Assembly: GCA_003194525.1 (NCBI GenBank)
Contig: NBIV01000054.1
Span: 62,001-126,000 of the forward strand
Source: Gracilariopsis chorda
Taxonomy: Eukaryota; Rhodophyta; Florideophyceae; Gracilariales; Gracilariaceae
DNA: 64,000 nucleotides
Direction of reading: 5' to 3'
The notes beneath the pieces are model-generated. The model did not search any database. It was not told the origin of the DNA and saw only the letters and a program-made list of their open reading frames with translations. This document shows positions 3 through 37,700 of this stretch, piece by piece (within the stretch, counting starts at the first letter, position 1; the number at the start of each line of letters is the position of its first letter). Both the position numbers and the translations under genes were made by a program.

Positions 3-566
3 GCATCTCTCCTTAACCCGGGACCACCTTCCGGATTTGCGGATAACATCCAGTATCTTGGCAGTCTTGAACAGTCGTTGGCAACCTCGGAACTGCCGTC
101 CACGGTTACACCCCCCGTGGTAGATCTGGCCTTTTACGCAAACCCCGGTCGGGTTCCCCCAGCCCCGCTAGCCTACGCGTCGAGCGCTACAAGACACTCC
201 CGCCCGGGATGGTCCAACCCGAAGCAACTAGCATTCCAACCACAACACCCTCAGCACCGCGGAATGATGTCCCACGCCACCGGAACACGTTCAGCCCCGC
301 TGATTTGCTACATTTGTTACCTTGAAGGTCATACTGCGTCGCAGTGTACCCTCCCCATTCGCGAGATGTGGAAGATCGTGGGAAATTATGAGAATCTCCC
401 ACCGGAGCATAAGGCTCGTGTCCCGAGTAATTCGTATGAAGACGCAAAGGCTGCGGTCCACAATGCTCAAGCTCGAGAAGCCGCGAAAACCGCGAACGGT
501 AACAACCCTAACCTTTCGGAACGGGCTCAGCCGCACCCAGCGGTCGATTCGGTCCCGAAAAACTAA
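3..566 (+). CDS. gag: Gag C-terminal part (partial, 5' end outside window)
   Basis: This frame is open from base 3 with no start inside the window, so it is the tail of a longer Gag. The visible 187 residues are Pro- and Ala-rich and contain one zinc knuckle, C-x2-C-x4-H-x4-C (bases 306-347), the nucleic-acid-binding motif of retrotransposon nucleocapsids. After the knuckle come about 70 polar residues and a TAA at 564-566. Pol is open in the -1 frame across this stop, and the last two sense codons form G-AAA-AAC. Expression of pol by -1 frameshifting is therefore possible but unproven. Confidence 0.85.
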   Translation, partial: ASLLNPGPPSGFADNIQYLGSLEQSLATSELPSTVTPPVVDLAFYANPGRVPPAPLAYASSATRHSRPGWSNPKQLAFQPQHPQHRGMMSHATGTRSAPLICYICYLEGHTASQCTLPIREMWKIVGNYENLPPEHKARVPSNSYEDAKAAVHNAQAREAAKTANGNNPNLSERAQPHPAVDSVPKN

Positions 567-1533
567 TCTTGGGAGTCTCCCCCACGGGAGGGGTGTCTTC
601 CAAGCCGAAGTTGAAGACGCCTGAGGCGCCACCGCTTCGCTCCCCTGCCAAAATCCTTACGAGGAAACTGGCTCAAGAAGACGTGAGCTCGGACCACTTA
701 GTGGCTCTGCGTCGTCCGTGGATACGGTCCCGTAACCTCCGCATCCCGGATCGAGTTTTGGTAATGGCCAAGAGGAACTATAAAGTTTATAGTGACCTCG
801 GTCTCTCTAACCAGTTCATGGTTCGTCAGTTATCTGTCCTGGATACAGGTGCCGCTCCGAACCTGATCAATATCGGGATTATTCCACCCGCCATGCGGAA
901 ATGCATTCGCATTGGTCCAAGTCTGGATCTGGCGGACGCTAATAACAACCCGCTCCAGACTCTTGGAACAATTCCTCTGGTACTCAGACTAGGCACCTAC
1001 GTGGTGAAGTTGGACTTCATCGTATGCGATTCTCTTGCTGCACCGGTCATCCTCGGTTGTGATTTCTGTGACCGCTTCGTGGAAGCTATCCGCCCTCGCT
1101 CCAGATCCGTGGAATTGGCCAACGGTTCGACCATCCCGATTGTACGGAAGCCCTTGCGACACGCCTCCCGTAAACGGGTACCTTTACCTGCTGCTCAGGA
1201 AGCGTCCAATGTGGATCGAGCATCTACGAAGATTCGCGTCGCAGAACCAGTTTCGATCCCGAAGGAATCTCAGGTGTGGGTCTCAGTAACATCCAAACAC
1301 CACGGGTTGCAGGTTGTTCAACCGCTCCCCTCGCTCTACGAACAGCGCCGTCTCGCATTAGCAAATGGGATCTTATCCGTCGAGCCGGACAAACCCTTTA
1401 AGGTTCTCGTTGCTAACCTCGGAACTACCACTCAGTGGTTGGTTAAAAACCAGGTCCTGGGCAACATGCTTCCGCATCCGTTGGCTATCCTTCCTACAAA
1501 GATTCCGATATCCGACGTTCTCGGAATACAAGA

Positions 1534-1552
1534 CCCTAAGGAGGGGGAGGAG
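1534..1552 (+). promoter_or_regulatory. Internal copy of the polypurine tract, protease-RT linker
   Basis: CTAAGGAGGGGGAGG occurs here, recurs at 4703-4720, and resembles the tract directly before the 3' LTR (8121-8137). It may act as a central polypurine tract for plus-strand priming; that role is inferred from the match alone. Confidence 0.4.
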
Positions 1553-4500
1553 ATCCCGTTCGTTCCGTTGGATCCCGCCCGGGAAAGTTCAGATTCGACT
1601 GTCGAAGAAGCTCAGAAGAGCACGACTTCAGCATCGGCAGATACTGCGTTAGACCCAGAACAGGCTTTGGATAAGTTGGACCTGGATCACATTAACGAAT
1701 CTCATCGTGAGAAGTTTCGTGACATGCTCAGGGACTTTACCGCCATGTGGGACGGTTCCCTGGGGACGATAGGGGTAACCGAACATCGGATTGATTTGTT
1801 GCCGGATACACGGCCTATTGCACAGCACCCGTATCGGGCAGGCCCTAAAGCAAGGGGGGAAGAGAAATCTCAGGTGGAGAAGATGCTGCGAGCTGGAGTT
1901 ATCGAAGCAGCACAATCCCCTTGGGCTTCTCCTGTTGTCCTTGTTCCGAAAGCCGATGGATCATGGCGTTTCTGTGTGGATTACCGCCGCCTGAATGCGG
2001 TTACTGTCAAGGACGTCTATCCGATTCCACGAATGGACGAGTACATTGACTCCCTGGGGAGCGCAACGGTGTTCACTACCCTTGATGCCAATTCGTGATA
2101 CTGGCAGGTCCCTATTAGGAAAGAAGATCGTGATAAGACCGCGTTTGTGTGCCATCAAGGACTATATCGCTTTAAGCGAATGCCGTTTGGACTAACGAAT
2201 GCCCCAGCTACATTCCAACGGGCAATCGATATCCTCTTGGCGAGGTTCAAATGGACCAGCTGTCTGGTATACTTGGACGACATTATAGTGTTCTCCAATA
2301 ACTTGGACGATCACCTGTCCCATGTCCGGGAAGTCTTGACAGTGCTCCGCAACGCGGGCATCACCCTGAAGCTGGGAAAGTGTGATTTCTGCGCCGATTT
2401 GGTAAAATATCTGGGGCACATCATCCGCCCCGGACAGCTTCCAATCGATGAAGCAAGAGTGAAATCACTTCGAGAGGCGAAACATCCGACTAATCAAACG
2501 GAGCTTCGATCCTTCCTAGGACTTTGCAATGTATATCGCCGATTCGTCCCGAACTTCGCCGACTTGTCAGCACCGCTTAACGCACTCCTCCGGAAAGGAC
2601 AACCCACCGAACTGGACGTCTTTGACGAGGCTGAGTCGTCAGCATTCTCGTCTCTTGTCGAGGCTGTAACGTCCCCGCCAGTTCTGGCCTTACCGCACCC
2701 GGACTTACCCTTCGAAGTGGATACTGACTCAAGTGCCCACCAGGTGGGTTGTGCGTTGTTTCAAGTCACGGAAGAAGGAGAAAGACATCCGATCGGATAT
2801 TGGTCACGTGCGTTGAACGTTCACGAGCGCAACTACTCGGTGTCCGAGAAGGAGTGTCTTGCTGTTGTTTGGGCGTTGGCAACGCTTCGCCCATACCTTA
2901 TGGGTAACCATTTCAAGGTTCACACCGATCACTCGGCTCTCCGTTGGCTACTCGAAATTCGAGAACCGTCGGGCCGCCTCATGCGTTGGCGTCTCCGGCT
3001 CTCGGAATTTACATTTGATGTCCTCTACAAGAAGGGATCCCTGAATACTCAGGCTGACGCCCTATCGCGCTTAGGAACATCAGCGGAAACCGAACCGGTC
3101 GACGATCTGGAAATACCATGTTTCATGGCACAATCCCCGGAGGGAACGGAAGAAGACGACCCAGACGTGAATGGGGATGACACCTGTGATGATATTCGGG
3201 CTGCAAACCCTACGGATCCTCCGGATGACCAGGTTGTCCCCATATCCTCTGAGGAAATGATCCGTGAACAACAGCAGGATCCTTTCTGTGCCCAGATTCG
3301 TGCCCGTCTTAACGGGGGTGCACAGATACCCTTTGCGGTGAACGATCGAGGCTACCTAGTCAGGTCGCTGACACGGGCCCCACAGATCGTTGTACCTCAC
3401 ACGCTGCAGCAGCGCGTCTTGCATCTATCGCATTACGCGAAGTTGGGCGCACATCCCGGCGGGAGGAAACTATACCTGACTCTTCGCAGGGACTTCTATT
3501 GGCCTGCTATGGCATTTGACTGCTATGCAGTTCGCCGCTCGTGCGTGGAATGTGCGAAGAATAATGTGAAACTTCGGAAGTAATCGAAGAAGTTAACACT
3601 ATTCCCGGCACGGGCGCCACTCGAATATGTCGCTATTGATATCTTGGGCGAGCTTGTCAAAACCAAACGTGGTTACAAGTATCTTCTCGTCATTACTGAC
3701 CGCTTCTCAAAGTTGGTGAGAACAGTACCGCTTAAACGGATTACCGCGGACGTGGTTGCGCGTGCGTTCGTATCCCACTGGGTCTTTACTTACGGCCCGC
3801 CGGTACATCTACTCTCCGACAACGGATCTCAATTTACCTCAAAGTTCTTTCAGGACGTATGTAGAATCTTGGGAATCAAGAATATGTTTACTACCACCTA
3901 CCACCCGCAGTGTAACGGACAAGTGGAACGATTCAATCGTACTATGCTCAACGCACTGCGCGCGTATGTCGCGGATCACCCCATGGAATGGGACTTGTAC
4001 ACGGACGCTATTACGTACGCGTATTACACCCAGGTACACCGGGTCACGACCCTCGCTCCATTTGAGCTGGTCCTGTCTCGGATTCCGCCACCCATGGCTA
4101 TTGAAGCGCAACCGAACGTCTCGGGGTACCCTTCACCAAGGTTATATCGAGATTCCTGGAAGGAATGGTTGAAGAACATGGTCCCTACCGCCCGAAAGGC
4201 TATGGGAAAAGCCCAGGAGGCATACAAACAGAACTTCGACGCGAAGATTCGTACCCCGATACCCCAGGTCTCGGAAGGGGATTCTGTCTTCCTGCGAAAG
4301 GAATATTATAATCCCGAAAAGGAAAAGCGCCACAAGTTGTCACCGATAGTGAATGGACCCTATCGGGTGGTTCCCGTCGCCGACGACACAGTCGTACTGG
4401 ACATCGACAACCAGTTCGAACACGTCTCACGCGACCGCGTAGCCCACGCGCCTGCGCCCCCTGAGGGCTCATCACCGCTCGTGACAATCCCGGAGGATGA

Positions 4501-4702
4501 CCTCGTAACTCCGCCAACGGATAATCTGCTTCCGTCCCGCCCACCCATCTTACCGCACCCGGAACGGGGACTCTCGGATCTTCCGATTGCCGATCAACCG
4601 GTTGAGCGCGCCGCGCGTATCGTGCAACGCACGCTTGATCCCAAACGCCTAACCGTTACTCCGCCCGCGGAGGTCCTTCAGCCTGAACCCACCGCCCTCT
4701 CA

Positions 4703-4720
4703 CCTAAGGAGGGGGAGGGA
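4703..4720 (+). promoter_or_regulatory. Internal copy of the polypurine tract, integrase C-terminal extension
   Basis: This is the second internal CTAAGGAGGGGGAGG in element I. Element II has a matching CCTAACGAGGGGGAGGAG at 21559-21576 at the homologous place in its integrase tail, so this copy is conserved within the family. Confidence 0.45.
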
Positions 4721-5689
4721 CGGGAATCGATCGCGCCATCGCGGAAGGAAGCTCCGGCGTCGGACGGTGTCCCGTTTCATACGGCTTCGCGAGCGCGTTC
4801 CCTCGCGCCGCACTCTGCGCTAACCGAGTCCCTTCAGAGCAAGGGTACTGCCGTCACGAAACGCGTGGTAAGCCCGGCACGGGAGAAGGTTGGGAACAGT
4901 GGACGAGCCCGCATCGGGAATACGGCATCGTCGGATGAGCACTCCCGGAGCAGGGAGGAGTTGAACGCATCGCGAAGCGAGAAGGCCGTCTCCGCGGACC
5001 CGGATGCACTCCTGTCGAGCGAGTCGCTGGGTAGCGAAGGAGGAAGTAGGGAACCGGACTCGGTGTGGTCACTAATGTGGCGAATGATATCTCCGAGCAC
5101 GGAGCACATACAACCTCGGTCATAACCAGTTTCGTGGTGAGCTGAAAAGCAACCGCGGACACGGAGAGTGTGGTTGACACTGCGTGCGTTACCGCAGAGC
5201 CCCACAAATGGACACTGTGACGCCACTGTCACGCGGACGAAGCCCGAAATTCCAAACCGTGGAAAGGTGTACACGTACATACCGCCGGCCGGCGTCAGGA
5301 GTACAGTCAAGACCCGCGTCGTGGAAAGACCGCGCGCGACACTTGCCGCCAGCGGCCAGCCAATCACAGTGTGTGATGCATGGCAATCCGCCTCCTGGCG
5401 TCGGAACCGTAATGAACCGCCTCCCTCACCGTGAACGGTCAAACTCACCAGAGTTGCACGGGTCGCGTGGGAGAAGAGCTCGCGAGCTGCGAGTCAATAG
5501 GGGAATCCGGTTAGAACGGAAGGCCCCCCCCACAAGGAGAGGATTAGGAAGCGGAAAGACCGCAATGCGGTATCAAGTCCCAGCACTCGCAGCGTCGAGG
5601 AAAGCTGACTTTGCCCGCAAGGTCGCGCCAATTTCAGGCAAGTCCCCTCACAGGGTTCTCCCCTTAAGCCCTGCCATGACGGGTCAGGA

Positions 5690-5909
5690 GCCGGCTACGT
5701 ACGACCAGGAGTTTGTCGTTGACCACATCGTGGATCATGTTCTGGACTCCAAAGGAGTGTGGTTTTACCAAATCCGATGGTACGGATACCCCCCGGAAGA
5801 GGACACATGGGAGCCCATTCAGCACCTTCCTCGTTCCAAGGTGATAACCTACCACCGCCGGACGCGGTTCCCACTCCCATCCACTTTGGACATGGCCCAG
5901 GTTGGGTAG
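5690..5909 (+). pseudogene. Pol C-terminal chromodomain, out of frame with integrase
   Basis: The segment encodes YDQEFVVDHIVDH, then FYQIRWYGYPPEEDTWEPI and HLPRSKVITYH. This is a canonical chromodomain: aromatic strand residues, W-Y-G-Y, E-x2-TWEP and a closing helix. Chromodomains at the end of integrase target chromoviruses to marked chromatin. The frame (continuous back to about 5184) differs from the integrase frame that ends at 5125, so at least one frameshift lies between them. Element II has a decayed homologous chromodomain at about 22565-22760. Confidence 0.9.
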
Positions 5910-6245
5910 GACGATACACTGCATTATGCAGAAGATTACGAAGACGGAAGAGAAGTCTCCGAAGAGAAGAGGACACAGGAAGAGATCTGGCTACAGAAGG
6001 TTACACGAAGTAATGGACTGGATAGGGAAACCAATGGTCATTGGACGTCACACCGCCTAGCGGTCCGACCGAAGTAACGGTTTAATGAAGAATACCGCCT
6101 AGCGGTCCAGCATGAAGATGCTATGAAGAAGAAAAAGAAGAGTCCAGACATACGGATATAGAAGAAGGAAGTCGTTTACCACAAGCTATGGAGCGTTAAG
6201 CGCTAACCTATATCAGGTGTGTGTGCCACATTCCAGGATCCTGAC
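5910..6245. other. Spacer between pol and the antisense ORF
   Basis: About 340 bases between the chromodomain stop and the stop of the convergent antisense ORF. It includes a purine-rich stretch (about 6116-6170). No coding signal or terminal repeat was seen. The equivalent spacer in element II received the solo LTR at 22906-23732. Confidence 0.5.
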
Positions 6246-8087
6246 TTAGGATGAGCCGCTCGTTGGCGGTTGGTAGTTCGCAGACGCGAAAGCCAATAAC
6301 TCGCTCACGCTGGTGAGGTTGGAAGGCGCAACCACTCCAATGGACTGGAGGTGAGCCCTGAGGGCAACGGCCTGAGGGTCCACGGGGACCGGAGATGCGG
6401 TAGACGGAGAAGCAGCCGCACTGGCGGCCATATTCCAGCCATCTGGAGCAGCCACATGCTGACCGGATCCGTCAAGATCGTCGACCATCGCCGTTCCCGG
6501 GGCTACGGCCTCCTCCACCTCATCGGGGTCGTCATCCACCATTGGATCATCCTCGTAGGAACCGTGCCAGTCATCGGAAAACATGAACCCAACCGGGTGG
6601 CCTCGCGGAACGGAGCGTGGTACATCGCGTAACGCTAGCGCGTGAGCCCGTGAAGTCACGGATACCTCCCAAGGGTCATAGAAGACGAAGTTGCCAGCGT
6701 TTGGATTTCTCCGGCCTGGAGAGCGATCATGCCTGGAAGGCTCACCGTCAGGGACGTTGGAGACTGGGACTGTATCCCAGTTAACCATATCGATGGTGTT
6801 CAGAAGGCACTGAAGCTCATCCACATTGGCTTCGGATCCCAGAGGGATATAGAGATCCAATCGGCAGATAACCTGGCGTAGGTGAGGAGGAATGTACCAC
6901 AGACGGTTCTTGTCGTACACCTCCCAGAGGAGAAATGCGGCAACGCGAGCAGCCCATTCGGCGAGGAAGAGAGTCCAGTAACCGGAATCCGGATTGTTGA
7001 TTAATCGTGAACCGATGTAGCTGAGGCACGGAGGCATCTCCGCAAAGCATCCCCTCGGGACTTCGAACCTGCTCCACCAATGGGGAAGAGGTGCATACCG
7101 GCCGCGCATCGCGGATGGACGGAGCCTCTCGACCTCGAGATTTTGGTATGGTACCAGGAACCCGAAGCGGGAGCGCACCTTTCGCTCAAACCGGAGTCGG
7201 TCGAAGAAGGATCCGCGATGATTCGGACGACGAAGATACCGGAACTCTGCACGCAGAATAGGGCGCCTCCAGAGGAGCATCCCGGCTTCTATTGGAGTGG
7301 ACCGGAACGGTGTAGATGGCTGGTAGGCAGCAAGGTTCTCGCAGTATGAGACTTCACCGTAGGTACGGTACCGCGAGAGGTCAAAGCTGTATTCCGTTGG
7401 TATCAGCTCATCCGGATAACTCGCGCGGGCGAGACGGTCGTAGGCGACCTTGGCCATCCCGGCACGGGCTTCATTCAGCGTCTCGAAACCATATCTGGTG
7501 CGCTTCCGTGCGATGAACTGTGGCTCTACCGCGATACGCGTCCTCCAGTCGAAGGAGTCGACCAAATCCCGGCCTAGTCCCCCTGGGAGCTCGCCTTCCT
7601 CCACATAGGAGTCGATGAGGTCCGAGTCGGAAACCCATGTGGGGTGGAACCAGGGCGCACGCGAAAAGAGGAGAGCGTCTTCCCGGGGATTGCGGGCCCA
7701 AAGTGTCGATGGTGACACCCAGCCGGCGGCGGTCGCAGTGATCGGTATCGCTTGAGCGGAATTCCAGGCGGCGATACTCGCGGCATCCGAGGCATCCAAG
7801 GTTGGAACATGAGACGATCCTCCAGGCAGAGGCAAGGAGAGGAACCCAGAGGTTGGGTGACGAACCCGCGACCCCGGCGTCGCGAAGGAAGGTTGTCCGC
7901 TCGTGGAAGTCCCCTGCGGGGCGCCCGCAGGCGGGTTGTTCGAAAACGGAGTGTTGGTCATAGTAGAGAGGGGCGCAGAGTCTGTTGAAGAAGGTACTGA
8001 GGGTTGATCAGTTGTAACCGTGTTGGTACGGGGGACCGGTATCTCGGCGATTCCCTTGTCGGGACTATTTATACCCTCGCGCCTCAT
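6246..8087 (-). CDS. Conserved antisense ORF of the Ty3/gypsy family, function unknown
   Basis: A 613-codon ORF runs against the direction of the element. It starts at the ATG at 8087-8085, about 35 bases inside the purine tract next to the 3' LTR; the frame extends without ATG to 8147 in the LTR. The N-terminal 130 residues are Ser/Pro/Thr-rich. The central 350 residues are rich in Trp, Tyr and Arg, with blocks such as RAPWFHP, IPTEYSFDLSRYR, RFERKVRSRFGF and PPCLSYIGSRLINNPDSGYW. An acidic stretch (DDPMVDDDPDEVEEA) and an Ala/Pro-rich tail follow. The same blocks occur in order in the decayed element II copy (23928-25641). I recognise no known domain. The position suggests transcription from an antisense promoter in the 3' LTR. 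Some plant Ty3 lineages (Tat/Grande type) also carry antisense ORFs; I see no evidence of homology to them. Confidence 0.8.
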   Translation of the reverse strand: MRREGINSPDKGIAEIPVPRTNTVTTDQPSVPSSTDSAPLSTMTNTPFSNNPPAGAPQGTSTSGQPSFATPGSRVRHPTSGFLSLPLPGGSSHVPTLDASDAASIAAWNSAQAIPITATAAGWVSPSTLWARNPREDALLFSRAPWFHPTWVSDSDLIDSYVEEGELPGGLGRDLVDSFDWRTRIAVEPQFIARKRTRYGFETLNEARAGMAKVAYDRLARASYPDELIPTEYSFDLSRYRTYGEVSYCENLAAYQPSTPFRSTPIEAGMLLWRRPILRAEFRYLRRPNHRGSFFDRLRFERKVRSRFGFLVPYQNLEVERLRPSAMRGRYAPLPHWWSRFEVPRGCFAEMPPCLSYIGSRLINNPDSGYWTLFLAEWAARVAAFLLWEVYDKNRLWYIPPHLRQVICRLDLYIPLGSEANVDELQCLLNTIDMVNWDTVPVSNVPDGEPSRHDRSPGRRNPNAGNFVFYDPWEVSVTSRAHALALRDVPRSVPRGHPVGFMFSDDWHGSYEDDPMVDDDPDEVEEAVAPGTAMVDDLDGSGQHVAAPDGWNMAASAAASPSTASPVPVDPQAVALRAHLQSIGVVAPSNLTSVSELLAFASANYQPPTSGSS

Positions 8088-8120
8088 CTCCTCACGCCTA
8101 TACTCACGTTCGTTTTCGGC

Positions 8121-8137
8121 CCTTAAGGAGGGGGATG
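8121..8137 (+). promoter_or_regulatory. Polypurine tract of element I
   Basis: TTAAGGAGGGGGATG lies immediately before the LTR terminus TGTAGGG. The same arrangement (GAGGAGGGAGATG then TGTAGGG) precedes the 3' LTR of element II. This is the plus-strand primer position in LTR elements. Confidence 0.8.
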
Positions 8138-9050
8138 TGTAGGGCAATACATTCTCGCGTACGGGCGATGGTGAAACTCATATCTGAGGTGTACTCGGGG
8201 CGAGCGATGAAGCGGGATGCATGAATTTTAGCCCCCGTTTACCGGGCTAATTAGCGGTCGGGTTACCCAGGGTGGTTATGGGAACATTCATATTTTGTGG
8301 TACTTGCTTGGCAAGGGTGGTGGACACGTGGCTACAGCCCCGGCCAGGAGGCCCAAAACGGCTACTTATTTTAGTATAGTTTAGGGGTTAATTTTACTTA
8401 GGCTAGTGCACTACCTACTGTACTGCACTGAGCTAGTACTTGAGCGTCGGCCGCACGACGGCGAGCTCACCAAGAAAAGTAACAAGAGTTCGGCTCTGAC
8501 TCTATTCACCATGCGGAGTGTCTAACTCCTCGCGGAGGTACACCGCTTGCCCGATAGTTTCACCCGACTCGCACCACCGAGGAGACCGTGCTCGTCGTAC
8601 CCAGTGGGTTGTGACCACTCGTGGTATTCATTGTTGTCGTGTGACCGCCCGTACAGGCCCTATCTCCGCCCCAGTTTTGGGTATTGATATTACCGACGTG
8701 TGTCGTGAGACCGTGAGACCATCTCTTCCCCTCATATCCCCTAACCGCCGCGCGGTGCGTGTTCGTGTGTGTGTATCGGCACCCCACTCCGGGGTCTGTT
8801 CCCGCTTTCCGCACGCCCCCGTCGGGTGGTCCCTTTCCCTCTTTTGTTCCCCTGTTCGCAGGCTACTTCCGGACCAGCCGTGGTTCCGACCCGTTCTAAC
8901 CCCTAAAACTCCGAGGTACATCCAGGCTCCCGACGGAGTTACACCCGTCATACGGGACACGGAGGGCTCTACCCAGCTGGGCCTACCTCTCCAAGAGAGC
9001 AAGGCTTCGAGCTGCCTTGGGTGCCTTTCCCACACCGGGATTGCACCACA
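8138..9050 (+). repeat. 3' LTR of element I
   Basis: It starts TGTAGGGCAAT after the polypurine tract and ends ATTGCACCACA, giving imperfect inverted termini beginning TG and ending CA. The length is 913 bp, close to the 945 bp of the element II 3' LTR, with which it shares termini and the segment around AGAGAGCAAGGCT. ORFs inside it (for example on + from 8518 to 9207) are fortuitous. Confidence 0.85.
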
Positions 9051-19257: not shown

Positions 19258-20070
19258 TGTAGAGCAATGCGTGTGCGCATACCCTCTACGGGAGGTGGTG
19301 GATCATGAGTGATTCAATACCGACGTGGCATCGGCTCAACTCAGGTATGAGAGCACCCTTGGAAATATTGAGTGGAATTCGAAATGAATCTTAATTGGTA
19401 TTTTTGGAACCTTCGTGGGTAATTTCTGTGGTATATGGAACATATGGAAGCGTGGCAAGCGTACGGATATTATTCATGGTTGGCATGGTTTACACATCTG
19501 GTGTTGTGCCGTGGCCGGCAGTGCCACCAAGTGACAGAAGTGGGTAGACCGCAAGTGTAGCACACTGCAGTAATAGTATTCTAAGTTTATTGTGACCGAA
19601 TAGTACCTAAGGGTAGACGGCCTTGCGGTTTTAACCAGAAGTAAAGACAAGCTGTGACTCGGCTCTCAGTTTATCGCCTCCGTGAAGTGACCAACTCTTG
19701 TTGGGGGTTGATCGAGTTCAGGCTCGTTATACTCACCCACACAGTATCATAAAGGGCCGCTGATCTGTTTTACCCCGTGGGTTCGCCCATTTTTCACAAT
19801 TTTTACCGTTTTGGTTACTTTCTATTGTGGGCACAGATAGACGTTCGGCTGAGTATTGAGGTTTGCTGTGCTGGCTAAACAAGCAACACCTCCCACCGCC
19901 GGGTCTCTTTTGGCTTTCCGTACCACCTGCCGGGTTTTACCTTCCGTTTTGGTTTCTTCCCATTTTCCCTTTTCCTTGTCTGGATTCTCCGTGAACCGGA
20001 ATACCACTCACATGAACCTGTGTACTACGTTGACCAGCTGGGAACCTGATTCTCGGTATCAGCTCCGTGC
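19258..20070 (+). repeat. 5' LTR of element II, 3' end deleted
   Basis: It starts TGTAGAGCAATGCG and aligns base by base with 25725-26530 (for example TTAATTGGTATTTTTGG, AAGCGTACGGATATTATT, CCGTTTTGGTTACTTTCTATTG). The match stops near 20070, where sequence equivalent to the RNase H-integrase linker begins. The last 130 or so bases of the LTR, the primer-binding site and the 5' half of the coding region are lost together. Confidence 0.85.
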
Positions 20071-20109
20071 TTCTCAAACTTCGTAGCCCCCGAACGAAGG
20101 CTCCCTAAG

Positions 20110-21225
20110 GCCTATAACTCCCGAAGAGTTGATTCGCAAGCAACAGTGTGATCCGTTATGTATACAGACTCGCGCTCGCATCAATGGAGGATATGACTTA
20201 CCTTTTTTGACGAACGATCACGGATACCTTGTCAGGTTGAGTAATTGTTCTCCAAAGATTGTGGTACCCCACTCTTTACGGAGACGGGTTCTCCAACTTT
20301 CTCAGTATTTGAAACTCGGAGGAAACCCAGGGGGTAGGAATTTATATCTAACTCTCCACAGAGATTTCTACCAGCCCTCTATGGCGCTTTACTGATATGC
20401 AGTTCGCCGCTCTTCTACAAAATGCACGAAGAGCAATGTGAAGCTACGGAAACATGCGAAGACGTTAACCCTATTCCCAGCTCTTGTTCCGCTGGAATTC
20501 ATGTCCATCGATATACTCGGCGAGTTGATTCGGACACCACGAGGAAACCGCTACATACTGGTAATAACCCACCGGTTTTCTAAACTCGTAGGAAAATACC
20601 GCTTAATAGACTTACCGCTGCCGCGGTGGCACAAGCCTTCGTCACACACTTTGTATTCGTTTACGGTCCACCCGTCGATTTGGTATTCGAAGATGGCCCC
20701 CAGTATATGTCAAAGTTCTTTCAAGACGTTTGTCATATTCTCGATGTTCGAAATATTTTTTTCACAACATATCTCCCGCAGGTTAATTGACCAGTGAAAT
20801 AATTTAATCGTACGATGCTTAACGTACTACGATCCTGTATTGCAGATCATCCTAAGGATTGGGACCTGTATACCGATGCGGTTACGTATGCTTGCAGTAC
20901 CCAGGTACATCGGGTTACGTCACTTTCATCTTTTGAGTTGACAGCGTCGCGAATCCCACCCCCGGTGGCAGTTGACGCTCGACCGACTTTGTCGGCGTAC
21001 CCTAAATCGCCAATCCACAAAGAGAACTGGAGAGAATGGTTAAAGAAGATGATACAGGTTCTCAGGAAAGCTATGGACAAAGCTCAACTTGCATACAAGT
21101 TTAATTTAGAAAGCAAGCTCCGTCAACAGCTACGGCAGAGGTTACCAAAAATGACTATATTTTCCTTCGTAAGGAGTATTATAATCCTAAAACGGAAATG
21201 CAGCATAAGCTTTCTCCAATCGTAG
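20110..21225 (+). pseudogene. Integrase relic of element II
   Basis: The zinc-finger region (GGNPGGRNLYLTLHRDFY) and core (SIDILGELIRT...VITHRFSKLV, then SKFFQDVCHIL, then FNRTMLNVLRSCIADHP and WDLYTDAVTYA) match element I integrase closely, but across several frames. Stops follow MALY at about 20394 and flank the catalytic Glu region (about 20790-20810), where a frameshift also separates the two core halves. It is nonfunctional. Confidence 0.88.
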
Positions 21226-21255
21226 ACAGAACTTATCGCGGGGTTTCTACTGCCC

Positions 21256-21681
21256 ATGACACAGTCACCTTGGACATTAACGACCAACCCGAACGTGTTT
21301 CGCGCGACTGCGCTACTGTATCTCTTCACCCTCACACATCCCCTGATATTAGGCATGGCTCCCGATGGTAATCTGGACTCAGATGAGCCGCTCGCAGTTC
21401 ATTCTCCATCGCAGCCAGCGATTCTACCGCATTTGGATCCTGTTTTATCGGATTTACCGAAGGAAACGGATCTTCGTATTCATGTCAAGTCCCCGGATAT
21501 CGCTGCTCGCTCCAATCGAGTCCACTTCCCACCCACCCTACTCATCCGCCAGACTCCGCCTAACGAGGGGGAGGAGGGTGCAATCGCTGTCGATTTACCG
21601 GTGTCGCCAAGAAAACTATTCCCGAGCACAAAACGGGTAATCACACCTTGCGAGACGTATAAATGGGAACTGGCAAAGTAA
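21256..21681 (+). pseudogene. Integrase C-terminal extension relic of element II
   Basis: It is a Pro-rich stretch with the blocks QPAILPHLDPVLSDLP and TPPNEGEEG, equivalent to PPILPHPERGLSDLP and SPKEGEG of element I. It contains the conserved internal polypurine copy (21559-21576). It is out of frame with the preceding integrase core. Confidence 0.7.
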
Positions 21682-22564
21682 ATGGGACCTCCCTTTTGGA
21701 AAGCCCTCAAAGAGAAGACACTGCTTTAACAGCACCCGCCCCCATGGCTAGTCTGCTGAAACCAGGACTTCGCAAAAGCGATAACCCACAAAGCGTTGCT
21801 CCTTGAACTAGTGGCGAACAGCACCCGGTGATGGCCGACCTTGACTTTGGTTATCTTCACGAGGACGATGACGATGATCGGATGTACACAAAGCTGTGCT
21901 TGTGATCTCTGATAACTGGGAAGAACGAGGCTTTCGTGGAACTCTTGAAGAGGTAGAACGTTAAGACGTGCCCCATGGCCTGTGAGAAGTTCACTCGCAA
22001 CCGTAGTCACAATGCGAACAGCCGGTACACGCAGTTGGACGTAACAGGCTTACATCGTCGCGGAGCAATGAGGCGCAGAAGTAACGGACACCGTACCCGT
22101 GTACTCGACAATCTGCGGCACCCCTCGGCAAGTGTCTACCTAAAATAGAACCAACATTTTATGGACGCCTGCCGGCGACGGGCGTCCAATCAGGATTCTG
22201 TATGCAAGCACCGTAGCTGGTCGATCCGCCTCCAGGCGCAGGGAGTGCGGCACACGAATATCTTCGTCAAAGAGTAATCCCGACCCTGTGACGCGCTAGT
22301 CGAATCTAAGACGCTTCTATTCGCCGGTCAAAGACTATTGAGAGCTCACTTGAAGAATTATTACTCTCGGCACAATTTCAGATTTGCGCTAAAATGCATA
22401 TCAAGGAAGTTACCGTTCTGCCGACTCGTCGAACCCACGAATAGTAATTTCCAAGTGCCTGTTCTGCGAGAACCGGAATAATGTCCATCAGGGTTGGAAA
22501 CCAGTCCCTTGGTACCTTTGAAGCGGTTGCACTTACGGGAAATCGTCATGGGAGACGTGAAATC

Positions 22565-22760
22565 GGATATTTATTCCCGAGAGTTCGTTATCGAATGTAT
22601 TGTGTGTCACAGATATGATCCAAAAGGGTTGGTTCATTTCCAACTCCGTTGGTATGGATAATTCTCAGAGGAGGACATGATGGAACCCATCGAACACCTA
22701 CCTACGTCTAAAGTCCTACAATATCACCGAATGGCTCGGACATCCATACCAGCAACGGTG
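22565..22760 (+). pseudogene. Chromodomain relic of element II
   Basis: Translation gives EFVIECIVCHRYDPKG, then HFQLRWYG, a stop, then SEEDMMEPIEHLPTSKVL. This aligns with the element I chromodomain (EFVVDHIVDH...FYQIRWYGYPPEEDTWEPIQHLP). The TGG/TAA-type decay includes loss of the conserved Trp in TWEP. Confidence 0.8.
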
Positions 22761-22905
22761 GATAAAGCCCAAGTAGACTAGACCCGTACCCAGTTTCCGA
22801 AGGGTAAGAAGTGACTGCGAAGCCGAGAAGGTCGAAGAAAAGGCGAAGAAGAAGGAGATCCTCATGGATGTAACAAGAAGTTGATGAACTGTAGCAAATA
22901 GAATA

Positions 22906-23732
22906 TGTGGTGCAATGCCCCAAAGGGGAAAAACACCGAAAGACGTTCGGGATCTTCCTCTCACGAGGTGAACCCAGTTGGGTAGAGCCCTCCCAGAGGT
23001 GTCACGGCGAAGCCGGTTTGTAAGACCAGGGACACCTGTCGCGACTCGCGCAGGGAGGTGAAGGCGAAGAATCGATATCCGCATGAGCGGGGTGTGATCC
23101 TCAGTAGAGGTATGTTTCCACGTAAGTGGGGGTGTGTGAGCGGATGCGCACACGAGGGCCACGGATAGCGGGAGGTGCTACCCTAAAAAGGGGAAAAAGG
23201 AAGGGCGAAGAGGAGGAAGGAAGGACGAAGTGGGTCGCGAGAGCGACGAACAGATACGGCAATGCCGGTGGACAGGACTCCCTATACAGGGCGAAACACC
23301 AATGTGATTGGAACAATTATACTCCCAAGGATGGGCTTCTTTAGATGTGCAAGGGGGTTAGATGTCCCGTGGTTTACGGCGTTTCCCTCCAAGGAGGAGT
23401 AGAGCACGCGCGCAAGCGGCAACAACTAGAGCCAGTTCCCCAGGTTGGGGTCCCTTGTTGGGGAAGGTTTACTGGTGCGACGGCAGTGCGCCGTCGCACT
23501 AAGTACTAGCTTCCCAGAAATGGGTGTGAAAATAATAAATAATATTAACTAAAATACTCCACATTTCGTGGCAACATCCACTACTGTGGCCAACCGCCAT
23601 TTGACCCAAAACCGTGTCCCACGTGTCCATATCCACCATAGTGGGGCGTAGTTCATATACACACTACACAACCGATAATATCGGGAAAGCGTTCAAGTAC
23701 CAAGAATCCCTCCCTGAGGGCGTTGCACTACA
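22906..23732 (-). mobile_element. Solo LTR inside element II with perfect target duplication GAATA
   Basis: It begins TGTGGTGCAATGCCCC and ends GAGGGCGTTGCACTACA. GAATA stands directly left (22901-22905) and right (23733-23737). The length is 827 bp. Read in the family's sense direction it runs from right to left. It contains a perfect hairpin with 10-bp arms (23475-23484 and 23490-23499). It lies in the spacer between chromodomain and antisense ORF and is the youngest layer of the nest. Confidence 0.92.
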
Positions 23733-23927
23733 GAATACTGCCGTATTAACGGTTATACCGGATGAACGGTTTAACGAGGAACCTTCATGATGATGAAGAA
23801 CAATATCAAATGGAAAATGCAGAAGAACCATGAAGGAAGAAGTAAGCAGAAGCACAAATTTGGCTTAATCCAGAAGCCATCGCAAGATTTATCACCGATA
23901 CGTGAAGGTTAAAATACTGAGTACAAC

Positions 23928-25641
23928 TTACCCCGAGGAAGGGCCTGCACCAGAGTGACTGGTTGACGGAGGATAATTGGCCACAGTGAAAGCCAGGAGC
24001 TGTCCAACATCTACCATGTCTGGAGGTACCGGGATTAATAGTTTTTGGAGGTTCTCGCGCAACGCAATGACGTGAGGGTCCGTTAGAACCGTAAGTGGCT
24101 CGTCAGCCAGAGTTTGCGGCTCACTCATCTGAGTTACGAAGCCCCACTTAACAGGAGCACCTGATGGGTTGCACGCACCAGCATCACTCAGAGCAGGCGA
24201 ATCTATGCCTGTTCCATGGTAAAGGCCCCCACTGTCGTATGCCTCGTCATCCATCATCGGATCATCGAAGTCGACCAACGGCTTGTAATCGTCATGAAAT
24301 ACGAATCCTGTCCGATGACCTGCTGGTATGGTCCACAAATGAATGAGCACGGGACACCATTGCACCCACATACGCGTCATAATAGACGAAGTTCCCAGCA
24401 ATTTGGGTGCCGGCGACCCAGAGATTTGTCATGAGGATTTCTTGGACCCTGACCACGGTTATCCAAAGGAACAGTATACCAGTTGACCTGGTCGATCACA
24501 TTCATGATGTATAAGATTTCCTCCACGTTCTCTTGGGATCCCAATGGTATTAACAGATTGAGATGTTTGATGATGTTGCTTAACATAGGCGGTATTAAAA
24601 CAAGACGGTAGTTGTCATACGCTTCGCGGAGAAGGAAAACCGCTACAAGGGTAGCCCAGTCTACGGCAACAAAGCGAGCAATAACCGGATTTTGGATCAT
24701 GAATGATGTGGGAACCTATATAAGTTAAACAGGGATGAAGTTCCTGGAAACACCGCTTGGGTACCTCAACCTGACGCCACCACGGTGGTAATGCTGCGAA
24801 GTGACCCCTGAACGTTTGTGGGAGATACCATCCGGTTTCGATATTGGTGTATAGAATTAAATACCTATATCGGGAACGTGACTTGCGCTCAAACCAAATT
24901 TTCTTGGAGAACGCCGCTTGCGTTTCAGAACGTCGGAGGAACCAAAACTTCACAAAGATGATGGGCTTCACCCAACAGAGCATATCCAACTCGATTGTTA
25001 CAGGCGTTGCGGTTTCGAATTGTGCCGTATCGAGCTGAGGCAGGCTATTCTCATAGAATAATTCGCCGTCGATGCGATACTTCGATATGTCGAAGTCGTA
25101 TTCACTGGGAATCAGATGTTGATTTAGAGTACGCATGAGCCGTTTATACGCGAGTTGCGTCATTTATTCTCGGACCCTATCCAGGTTCACTCCATGGAAA
25201 AACTCTATCCGTAGAAGGTTAGGATCTAACGCAATGCATCCCCGCCAATCGCGTGAAGTGACCACGTCAAGTGGAAGTTCACCACGGAGAACGTCGTCGT
25301 GTGCGTAGGACTGGATCAGTGGCAAGTTGAAAACCTTGAATGGGTGAAACCAAGGAGCTCGGGCATCGATAGAACGGTTCTGTAACTGACCCCGTTCTTT
25401 TAGGGTTACCTTTTGGTCCCAACCGAGTTGATTTATGACAAAAAGGCAATGGAGCCATATGAAACTGGCTCAGTCCAGAGGATGAAGGAGCCATACTCCC
25501 AGACTGGGAAGTACCCGCTGCGGGGTTGTGTTGGTTGAGATTCTCTGAGTTCATTAACTGAGATGGAGAACCAGTTTCGATGTTGTTAGTATTCGTTCGT
25601 CGTGTTTTGCGTTGACCCCAAGAAAGTCCGATCTCACTCAT
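23928..25641 (-). pseudogene. Decayed antisense ORF of element II
   Basis: This is the homologue of the antisense ORF of element I, in the same relative place and orientation, beginning at the ATG at 25641. Open pieces are 25641-25279, 25163-24615, 24700-24377 and 24401-23928, in changing frames. Blocks shared in order include RAPWFHP, IPSEYDFDISKYR, WFERKSRSRYRYL, PPWWRQVEVPKRCF, HPCLTYIGSHIIHDPKSGY and MMDDEAYD. The N-terminal 100 residues are again Ser/Pro/Asn-rich and poorly conserved. The blocks are similar but far from identical, so the two copies diverged a long way before this one lost its frame. Confidence 0.85.
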
Positions 25642-25724
25642 GAGGCGTTGGATTCTTTATGCCCATTTTCTTCTGCAGGTCACTCGCTTTCGTTGAGATG
25701 TTTCCTGGTTTGAGGAGGGAGATG

Positions 25725-26669
25725 TGTAGGGTAATGCGTGCGCGAATACCCTCTCGGTGAGGTGGATCATGAATGATTCAGTACAGACGTGGCATCGGTT
25801 CAACTCAGGTATGAGTGGACCCTTGGAAATACTGGGTAAAATCCGATATGAATTTTAATTGGTATTTTTGGGACCTTCATGGGGGATTTCTGTGGGATCT
25901 AGAATACATGGACGGGTGGCAAGCGTACGGATATTATTAATGGTTGCCATGATCCAAACATGTCGGGTTGTGACGTGGCCAGCAGCGCCGCCAAGTGACA
26001 AAAGTGGGTGGACCACAAGTGTGGCACACTACAGTAGTAGTATTCTAAGTTTATTGTGACCCAATAGTACTTAAGGGACGAAGGCCTTGCCGATTTACCC
26101 TGAAGTAAAGACAAGCTGTAACTTGGCTCTGAGTTTATTGCCTCCGTGAAGTGACCAACTTCTGCTGGGGTTTAACCGCGTTCGGTCTCGTTATAATCAC
26201 CCAAACAGTATCACCAAAGACGCTTGATCGGTCATACCCCGTGGGTTTGCCCATTGTTCACTGTTTTTACCGTTTTGGTTACTTTCTATTGCGGGAACAG
26301 ATAGCCACTCGGCTTAGTATTGAGTTTTCCTATGCTGGCTGAACAAAAAACCCCGCCACCACCAGGTCTGTTTTGGCTTTCCGCAGTACCTGCAAGGTTT
26401 TATCTTCCCTTTTTGTTTCACCCCTTTTTCCCTTTTCCATTTCTGGATTCTCCATGGACTGGAACACCGCTCAAACGGACCTTTGTACTAAGTTGACCAG
26501 CTTGTAACCTGATTCTCGGTGTCATCTCCGTCGGTATAGCCAGAAGCCACCCCGGTTTTCCTCCCGAAAACCGTGTGATATGGAAGGCCCTGTCGCTGCC
26601 CCTATCTCACAAGAGAGCAAGGCTGCGAACAACTTGGGAGTATTTCCTGCCTAGGGATATTGCTCCACA
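25725..26669 (+). repeat. 3' LTR of element II
   Basis: It starts TGTAGGGTAATGCG after the tract GAGGAGGGAGATG and ends GATATTGCTCCACA. It is 945 bp, with a visible but moderate number of differences from the 5' LTR, which implies an old insertion. Confidence 0.87.
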
Positions 26670-34711: not shown

Positions 34712-37700
34712 TCATTCAGATCCCAGCGAGCACTCACGAAGAGCACGACGCTTGAGACCCCGCTGTCCAGCGGTGTGGAGGTAGTCTTCCAGCAATCCTG
34801 GCAAGTCCTCAAACACTTGACCCAACGGTTCCCAAGTAAAGTCTATCTCATCGGGCAGACCTGCCCACTCCACGAGCACTTCCAGCTGACGATCTTTCTC
34901 ACGAATGCCACGAAGCTGTTCAGCTGTCTCGTACTTCGTCTCCGAAGCTCGAGCAGCCTCCAGCAGCTTTGGGGTGAACACCCTACCATCCATATCTGCA
35001 CGATAGGAGTGGAGGCGTCTAGCGTGCACAACTTCACGCTTGTCTTTGACCAGGTCCTGTACCTCATACACCCAGTCAGATCTTACTGCTGTAACTCTGC
35101 GAGGACCCCTCCAGGTGAACTGCAACTTGTGCCCACCCTTTGTCACCGTTCGGACGAGCACGAAGTCCCCGACGCTAAAGTCGGCCTCCTTGATGTTCGT
35201 CCGGCGGTTGTGCTTCTGTACCTTCCGCGCACGCGAAGCCGACGTCAGTCCTTCCACGTCGCGATGAACATCGCACAGGGCACCTTGCAACTTTCCGATG
35301 TCCACAAGTTGCCTGGCCCGCACTTCGTCCTCCGTCCGAGCACTGCTGTATGCCGGGACCGGCAGCGCACGAAGAAGCGGGCGAACGGGGAGATGGCCCG
35401 TGAAGACCTCCAGGGGTGTTCGATAGACTTCGGAGTTCTCCGGGTCGCGTAACCCGAGCCGCTTGAGCGGAGCGTGATTGAGCACACTCTGCACGCACTC
35501 CGTTACCGCCGGCCAGTCCTGGGGCGCCAACTTCCATTCACTCAACAAGGCTTTGCACGCACGAAGCACTTCGCTGCATACCCTTTCAACGGTACCGTTG
35601 GCCCAGGGCGAGTAGGCCGTGGTAAAGTGATGGTGCACACGCACTTCGGCCGTCAACTCGGCAATCAGCTGGTTCTTGAAATGAGAACCCTGATCGCTGA
35701 CGAGCCAAGTCATACTTCCAAACGTCCCGAACCATGTACCCAGGGCGTCGGCTGCAGCCTCGCTTGTACAAGCTGTTGTAGGCCAGAGCCACACAAACGA
35801 CGAAAGGTCGTCTCGAATGAGCAGCAAGTACTTCTTGTCATCCCGTCCGGGCCCCATGAACAGATAGTCCATGTGCACAACTTCATTCGGCCTCGACCCA
35901 TGGAGAGCCGATCCGAGCGGACGGGGAATCAAATCGCCACTACGGGTGACGATGCAATGGAGGCAGCCTCGAACGAGGGTCTCGACGTCAGCACCCATCG
36001 TCGGCCACCACCATTCCTCAGCCAGCACACTCCTCGTAGCGTCGCGCCCGCGATGACCTAAGGTCCCGCAGTGGGAGACCACGAGGATCTTGAGCTGTAG
36101 CTCCTTGTCCTCCTGCGGCACCCAAACGCGACCGCGCTTCTTCCAGACTCCTTCTTGCTCATCGAGCTTCAGGCCGTCCGGCCGAGTTGCGGCTTCTTGC
36201 GATTTCTTGATCGAGTCCATGTCTGGCCAGACGAAATCATCCGGAGATGGGATGAGCTGCTCCGAGTCTTGCAACAGCATACTGCTGACGGCGGAGCGTT
36301 CGCTCCTATCTCTGCGATACCCGCGCGTCCACCGCGTGAGCATGTCTGCGCAGACGTTGTCCTTCCCATCGATATGCTCGATCACGTAAGCAAAGCGGGA
36401 CAAGAACAGTGCCCACCGTTGCACTTTCGATACCACGTGGCGACCAAGAGCTGGTTCCAGCGCCAACGGCGCAAAGACAAACAGCAAATTGCGATGGTCC
36501 GTGAACACGTGCGTACGCACATGACTCTGGAACAAATAATCCATCTTCTCTAACGTCTGGAAAATGGCAAATCCCTCCTTCTCGAAGGTTGTCCAACCTA
36601 TCTCAGCTCCCTTGAACGAGGAACCCAGAAATCCGAGGGGCTCGTGCCGTTGCTCCTCGAAGGGCAGTCGGAGCTGCACAGCATCCGTTTGCGTGACCAC
36701 GCCAGACCAGTACATTTCAGAAGCATCTGTAAAGACGCAAAGCACTTTCTCCGGGTCCGGATGTGAGAGAGTAACAGCATTGCGGAGGCTTTCTTGCATA
36801 TCTGCAAACGCTTGGTCGTGTGTAGGGCCCCAAGAAAGGCTTCGCAGAGAGATACGGCGAATAGATCTATTCGTTCGGCGACCCGATTGAGCGTACGCTC
36901 GTTCCAAAACTTCCACGAGGGGGGCTATGCGAGCGGCAAAGTTAGGGATAGCATTAGCCATCCACCGGCAACAATAAATAAACTGCGCCAATTCTTCCGC
37001 GGTTTGCGGTGCGTCCATGTCTTTGAGACCGTCGAGACGCGCCGGGTCCATTCGATATCCATCCTTTGATACGATGCGACCGCACCACTTGAGCTCACGC
37101 TCGAACAGCTTGCACTTCCGAGCGTGAAGGAAGAGGTTCCGCTCCCTGCAGATTGCCAAAAACTCCTGGAGCTTGCTCAGCAACGTTGACTCGTCTTTCG
37201 CATGAATACTGAAGTCGTCCAACCACGCCTTGACCGAATCACGCAACGAAGCGAACAGTGGCTCCACTGAACTCTGAAAGTACGACGTCGCATTGGCCAG
37301 TCCTGGCAACACCCTCTTCGACACCACGACTCCACGCGGTGTGACGATGCCACATGCCGAGTACGAATCGGGGTGCAAAGGCAACTGCCAATAGCCCGAT
37401 ACGAAGTCCAAACTTGCGAAACATGTGCTTCCAGCAAAGTCGGAGACCTCCGAGTCCAGGTGAGGCATAGGCCACGCCTCCTTGATTGTTGCGGCGTTCA
37501 CCGGCCGCAAGTCAACAGCCATGCGGTACCGCGCTTTCGACCCATGCTTGGGGACCAGCAGCGGTGCCGCTTGCCACGCAGCTGAGGGCATGTCTTCCAC
37601 GAAGCCCATCTCTCGCAGCGCGTCCACGTACTTGTCCAAGAACAGGCGCTGGTCCGGCGAGTAGCGTCGTGCCTTCACTCTAACCGACCGCTTGCCTGGT

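Follow-up and report, generated by a model that had tools for sequence, protein, structure and literature searches.

In a 64,000-nt window of the Gracilariopsis chorda genome (contig NBIV01000054.1, positions 62,001–126,000), a Ty3 retrotransposon with a chromodomain, here element I, carries a 613-codon open reading frame (ORF) on the strand opposite pol. On balance, we regard this ORF as a genuine accessory gene of a chromodomain Ty3 lineage, probably a red-algal one, that is probably expressed in antisense, most likely from an internal promoter of its own, and whose product we guess to be a nuclear regulator. A first-pass annotation, made from the DNA letters, had placed the ORF between the chromodomain and the 3' LTR of element I, and translation, Pfam searches and LTR mapping bear this layout out (chromodomain frame ending at 5909, 3' LTR at 8138–9050). 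The features of element I are as follows.

3..566, plus strand: 3' part of gag with a CCHC zinc knuckle, the gag start lying upstream of the window (sequence)
512..3583, plus strand: pol, with protease (DTG, read in the sequence), reverse transcriptase, RNase H and integrase zinc-binding domain (Pfam)
3584..5125, plus strand: integrase core, rve (Pfam)
5178..5909, plus strand: chromodomain frame (PF00385, E 1.6e-10; Pfam)
6081..6086, minus strand: ATTAAA, candidate polyadenylation signal, 160 nt past the stop of the antisense ORF (sequence)
6246..8087, minus strand: accessory ORF in antisense, 613 codons counted from its first Met (translation, genome matches, selection counts)
6246..7961, minus strand: likelier coding sequence, Met 43 (codon 7961–7959) to stop (inferred)
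6588..7658, minus strand: conserved core, residues 144–500 (alignment, selection counts, structure model)
8065..8073, minus strand: TATA box TATAAATAG, possible internal antisense promoter (sequence only)
8125..8137, plus strand: polypurine tract before the 3' LTR (read in the sequence)
8138..9050, plus strand: 3' LTR of element I (LTR comparison)

Element I and its antisense ORF

Element I is a Ty3 element, complete and young, that carries a chromodomain. It has two LTRs with TG..CA ends, the 5' LTR lying upstream of the window (C54:59458–60369) and being 99.2% identical to the 3' LTR, and it is flanked on both sides by the target duplication GAATC. A polypurine tract is present, as is gag with the CCHC knuckle; the whole gag frame is uninterrupted in copy L014, where the CCHC motif was confirmed. 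Assigned by domain content, element I is a Ty3/gypsy chromovirus, with RVT_1, RT_RNaseH, rve and a chromodomain behind the integrase. The pol of the window copy is broken by in-frame stops. The chromodomain frame differs from the integrase frame in element I and in copy L010; in L045 (4184–6649), both lie in one 821-aa ORF. The split in element I might reflect frameshifting, splicing or decay. In copy L048, an insert at about 1663–2576 separates two reverse transcriptase pieces; when translated, this insert looks like the translated family I LTR and is probably a nested insertion. The window holds further, distant reverse transcriptase and integrase sequence (24–32% identity) at 35492–37393 on the minus strand.

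The antisense ORF of element I, 613 codons plus a stop at 6246–8087, sits in a stop-to-stop frame of 643 aa (6246–8177). The longest open frame in 5910–8134 runs to 628 aa; among 1000 dinucleotide shuffles, none exceeded 366 aa. Its core has a length of 351–357 residues in eight rows (element I, L045, L046, L048, L049, L059, L050 and L053). The gap between chromodomain and antisense stop (5910–6245) and its equivalents in L045, L046, L049 and L050 are pyrimidine-rich on the antisense strand and purine-rich on the sense strand; the purine-rich sense stretches are possibly an internal polypurine tract.

A broken counterpart in element II

The first-pass annotation had further described a homologous, broken ORF at 23928–25641 of a second element, in the same place and orientation.

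23931..25469, minus strand: four pieces of a broken ORF in element II, homologous to the antisense ORF (translation, protein match)
about 25725..26531, plus strand: 3' LTR of element II (LTR comparison)

The counterpart is there, although over a shorter span. Four minus-strand pieces (25469–25167, 25163–24618, 24715–24380 and 24428–23931) follow the same order as the element I ORF, the best of them at E 2.5e-41, a similarity far above chance; the first ends about 256 nt from the element II 3' LTR. For 25470–25641, inside the span first described, a match to element I was not seen. The paired motifs pointed out earlier are present in both translations, and the LTRs are indeed very different: in the forward direction, similarity between the element I LTR and the 3' LTR of element II is limited to some 77 nt (73% identity) at the 3' end. 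Element II (19258–26531), whose 5' LTR (about 19258–20068) is 83% identical to its 3' LTR, is an old, decayed or internally deleted copy. Its reverse transcriptase/RNase H is represented by the last part only, and gag was not seen between its LTRs.

The ORF accompanies the chromodomain across the genome

Searching the 91.3-Mb assembly (1081 contigs) with the window ORF gave at least 75 matches, 72 long and 3 short. Neither 58 of the 72 long matches nor 47 of the 56 matches spanning residues 1–613 contain an in-frame stop; as only the best candidates were scored, these counts lean to intact copies and are lower bounds. The queries P0009 and P0004 reach further subfamilies at 29–50% identity, many with open frames of 600–664 aa, and 45 of the 71 P0009 matches are free of stops (best candidates scored).

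Had the ORF been absent from most members of the family, the gene reading would have suffered, yet this fear did not hold. We sampled 90 chromodomain places that reach the last residue, taken by hand among the matches listed (152 reported), and found the opposite-strand ORF in 86 of them, 71 by coordinates and 15 among 16 further places that were read. At the chromodomain place on C124, an ORF match was not found in the 801 bases read; the remaining three places lie near contig ends and were left unread. The orientation is equally constant. Among 62 loci examined for it, all 52 with both matches (48 distinct places, four being duplicated) have ORF and chromodomain on opposite strands; six ORF loci lacked a chromodomain match, and in four stretches the ORF was not matched. 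ORF matches at G000:C15:287262, 293279, 299296 and 305316 are spaced by 6017–6020 nt; they probably mark tandem copies of an element from a single subfamily.

This distribution bears on whether the ORF could be a recently captured host gene or nested transposon, carried as a functionless passenger. LTR elements are known to capture genes, as noted in passages of PMC7264820. The opposite-strand arrangement in 52 of 52 loci (48 places), the deep split into subfamilies and the selection between them already contradict a recent capture, and a cellular homologue was not recognised among the relatives and domain searches, most matches being without genomic context. We consider this origin highly improbable.

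Purifying selection between subfamilies

Nei–Gojobori counts were made on the core, residues 144–500. Between diverged subfamilies, the core protein is 32–76% identical with synonymous sites near or at saturation, and dN/dS is 0.08–0.34 where dS is measurable; the protein is therefore under purifying selection between subfamilies. The pair L049/L050 has 76% amino acid identity, pS 0.67, pN 0.14 and dN/dS 0.09; the ratio is 0.19 for both L046/L048 and L042/L034, and 0.28 for L046/L049. The top between-subfamily values, 0.33–0.34, all involve the fragment L034. Element I compared with ten other rows gives pS 0.74–0.79 (saturated) and pN 0.31–0.43. A ratio near 1 had been named as the outcome to fear; the values found are well below it and support the earlier proposal of an accessory protein gene that is selected and conserved across a divergent Ty3/gypsy family.

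Selection is visible only in these between-subfamily comparisons, and very young copies show little sign of it. Ten main-family copies pooled have pN/pS 0.56, with 25 synonymous and 34 nonsynonymous singletons, and 3 synonymous and 8 nonsynonymous variants shared by at least two copies. In the shared variants of these ten young copies alone, amino acid changes are not in deficit, so that constraint is not visible. The ratio is 0.72 for L063 against element I, 0.49–0.89 for near-identical pairs in other subfamilies, 0.50–0.69 for pairs with broken copies and 0.29 for the ORF pair I/L010. Taken together, near-identical ORF copies (0.3–0.9) behave like pol (0.6–0.9; 0.62–0.93 between young copies), and we read the high ratios among young copies as drift after insertion. 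The ORF evolves faster than pol: between element I and L045, dN is 0.50 for the ORF, 0.25 for reverse transcriptase and 0.40 for integrase, and between element I and L048 it is 0.40, 0.20 and 0.28, respectively.

That the constraint falls on the protein also matters for a reading in which the gene counters host silencing, or acts as antisense RNA forming dsRNA with the genomic RNA, coding being secondary. The transcript would complement the 3' end of the genomic RNA, and a dsRNA role is discussed in passages of PMC7264820. A role for the RNA only leaves the conservation of the protein at saturated synonymous sites unexplained; a protein that counters silencing is still compatible with it. We rate this reading as unlikely.

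Relatives and age of the subfamilies

A protein search in which 8000 candidates were scored returned 10 relatives at E ≤ 10, including G. chorda BWQ96_10156 (44% identity) and an Agarophyton chilense sequence (37%), both annotated only as hypothetical or unnamed. P0011 came from a profile search; starting from P0010, a second clade (P0012–P0016) was reached. Run against the genome, P0010 finds matches at 29–39% identity (best E 3.5e-18), many of them at places already matched by the ORF query. In a maximum likelihood tree of 26 rows, with 5 of 23 inner branches weakly supported, sequences from elsewhere interleave with the subfamilies of this genome: P0005 of A. chilense joins L049/L050 with support of 100/100, and P0001 joins the group of element I (88/91). 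Because foreign sequences fall among them in the tree, the subfamilies are probably older than the host species.

A protein with a predicted fold and no recognised domain

The earlier statement that no known domain is visible is confirmed. The window ORF matched 0 Pfam families, and no known domain was found in PHROGs or NCBIfam; five clade-2 relatives likewise had no Pfam match. In a 31-row alignment, one or two members gave domain matches, all of them weak (best E 0.016). By sequence, the ORF and profile A2 found no PDB match at E ≤ 10, and profile A4 found two weak ones (E 0.33 and 1). The structure model of the core has a pTM of 0.88 and is confident at about residues 111–504 and again in the helices at 571–604. 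No match was found for the core model among solved structures or for the full-length model among viral models. The net charge of the core is near neutral (+4 in element I), and neither sequence nor fold held a pointer to DNA-binding or regulatory activity.

As for candidate identities, a capsid fold of the antisense protein is unsupported, with no significant match to a retroviral or Ty3 capsid fold; a missing match need not mean a different fold. The ORF as a displaced gag was rejected given the sense gag, and as a TRP28 gene given that PF04195 has 0 matches in the genome and none to the ORF.

A structural or envelope-like particle component, of capsid, matrix or movement type, would suit the size of the protein and its place behind pol, which recall the env-like extra ORFs described in passages of PMC7264820. 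The capsid-like variant, put forward in the first-pass annotation, fares poorly: it found no fold match, and a CCHC-bearing sense gag is already present in the element. We regard a particle role as improbable.

Candidate signals for antisense expression

The coding strand bears GGGTATAAATAG, with its TATA box at 8073–8065. From the box it is 112 nt to Met 43 (7961); the first Met (8087) comes before the box and would be missing from an mRNA started at it. The distance from Met 43 to the core is 303 nt, and in other subfamilies a Met precedes the core by about 220–300 nt; for this reason, and because the first Met is upstream of the TATA box, we infer Met 43 to be the likelier start. Of 16 rows, five carry TATAWAW ahead of the core (1.06 expected), at −415 (element I), −416 (L063), −389 (L048), −368 (L050) and −571 (L049) from the core; the strict box is missing in 11 of the 16 rows, and element I and L063 among the five positives are one subfamily. 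AATAAA or ATTAAA is found within 200 nt behind the stop in four of five intact representatives (element I, L045, L046 and L050, not L049). A wider count gives 5 of 10 rows, with 0.75 expected (4 of 9 without L027), where the end of L027 is not set by a stop, three rows are omitted and some cores are mis-set. The rows of the TATA and poly(A) counts include broken copies and members of the same subfamily, and the counts are not independent.

The first-pass annotation had held that a gene starting beside the 3' LTR implies a bidirectional LTR promoter. Such a promoter is not required, given the TATA box inside the element before the likely Met, and it keeps some standing as an alternative. The antisense mRNA of the same gene would then start inside the 3' LTR as in HTLV, a precedent described in passages of PMC7264820, and every LTR, solo LTRs included, could fire into its flanks. 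The first Met (8087) is only 50 nt from the LTR (8138–9050), the frame is open to 8177 inside it, and in many copies the reading frame continues without a stop from Met 43 back into the LTR (643-aa frames), which leaves room for an LTR start. Most other subfamilies are without a strict TATA, and for them this start stays viable. Against it, the TATA box of element I is internal, between the first Met and Met 43 and 112 nt from the latter, and the antisense strand of the LTR offers only TATACTAA as a TATA. We see an LTR start as a minority possibility.

In the preferred reading, a genuine accessory gene, antisense transcription would begin at the gene's own promoter, which adjoins the 3' LTR on the side of the element's interior, at the TATA box 8073–8065; translation would start from the Met at 7961, and the gene would end before the chromodomain. 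The product may regulate the element in trans, probably in the nucleus, at the level of expression, silencing or integration. This is a guess by analogy with proposals for the Grande gene23 and Retand TRP28 proteins and with the known HTLV HBZ. A bolder form of the reading, which we entertain only tentatively, would have the antisense gene encode the founding member of a new protein fold, a trans-acting factor that red-algal chromoviruses have been unable to do without from a time before their host species diverged; it would then rank beside gag and pol as a third gene, oppositely oriented and just as firmly fixed.

Comparison with known antisense genes

Among plant Ty3 elements, Grande and RIRE2 belong with Retand. 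Antisense accessory ORFs between pol and the 3' LTR (aORF-3R) are described for Grande of maize (gene23), RIRE2 of rice and Retand of Silene in passages of PMC7264820 and PMC11963269. For Grande gene23, the same passages report an own promoter and a nuclear protein. The layout of element I is the same, and an own promoter, reported for Grande gene23, is likely here. In contrast to the Retand lineage, which passages of PMC11963269 present as non-chromovirus with a TRP28 domain (PF04195) apparently restricted to flowering plants, element I includes a chromodomain, and the PF04195 tests show that its antisense protein is not TRP28. The antisense ORF of Boty in Botrytis and Sclerotinia (passages of PMC7264820) also belongs to an LTR element outside plants, although a fungal one, the likeness being by description. 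HTLV-1 HBZ and HTLV-2 APH-2 are likewise antisense genes at the 3' end of a retroelement, again by description; their proteins are nuclear and, in HTLV, the antisense promoter lies inside the 3' LTR (passages of PMC11963269 and PMC7264820). HTLV proteins were not among the matches of the searches made with the antisense ORF.

Passages of PMC7264820 and PMC11963269 describe antisense genes downstream of pol mostly in flowering plants and call their function unknown; in the titles and abstract openings surveyed on red-algal elements, an antisense ORF was not found. Element I follows an architecture already known, but the protein involved is apparently new, and a function for it can be offered as a hypothesis. 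An unrelated protein occupies the same slot in chromodomain elements, probably red-algal ones, and is kept in nearly every copy checked. If confirmed, this would mean that the acquisition of antisense accessory genes by Ty3 elements has happened repeatedly, and it would make a folded, conserved protein available for testing what such genes do.
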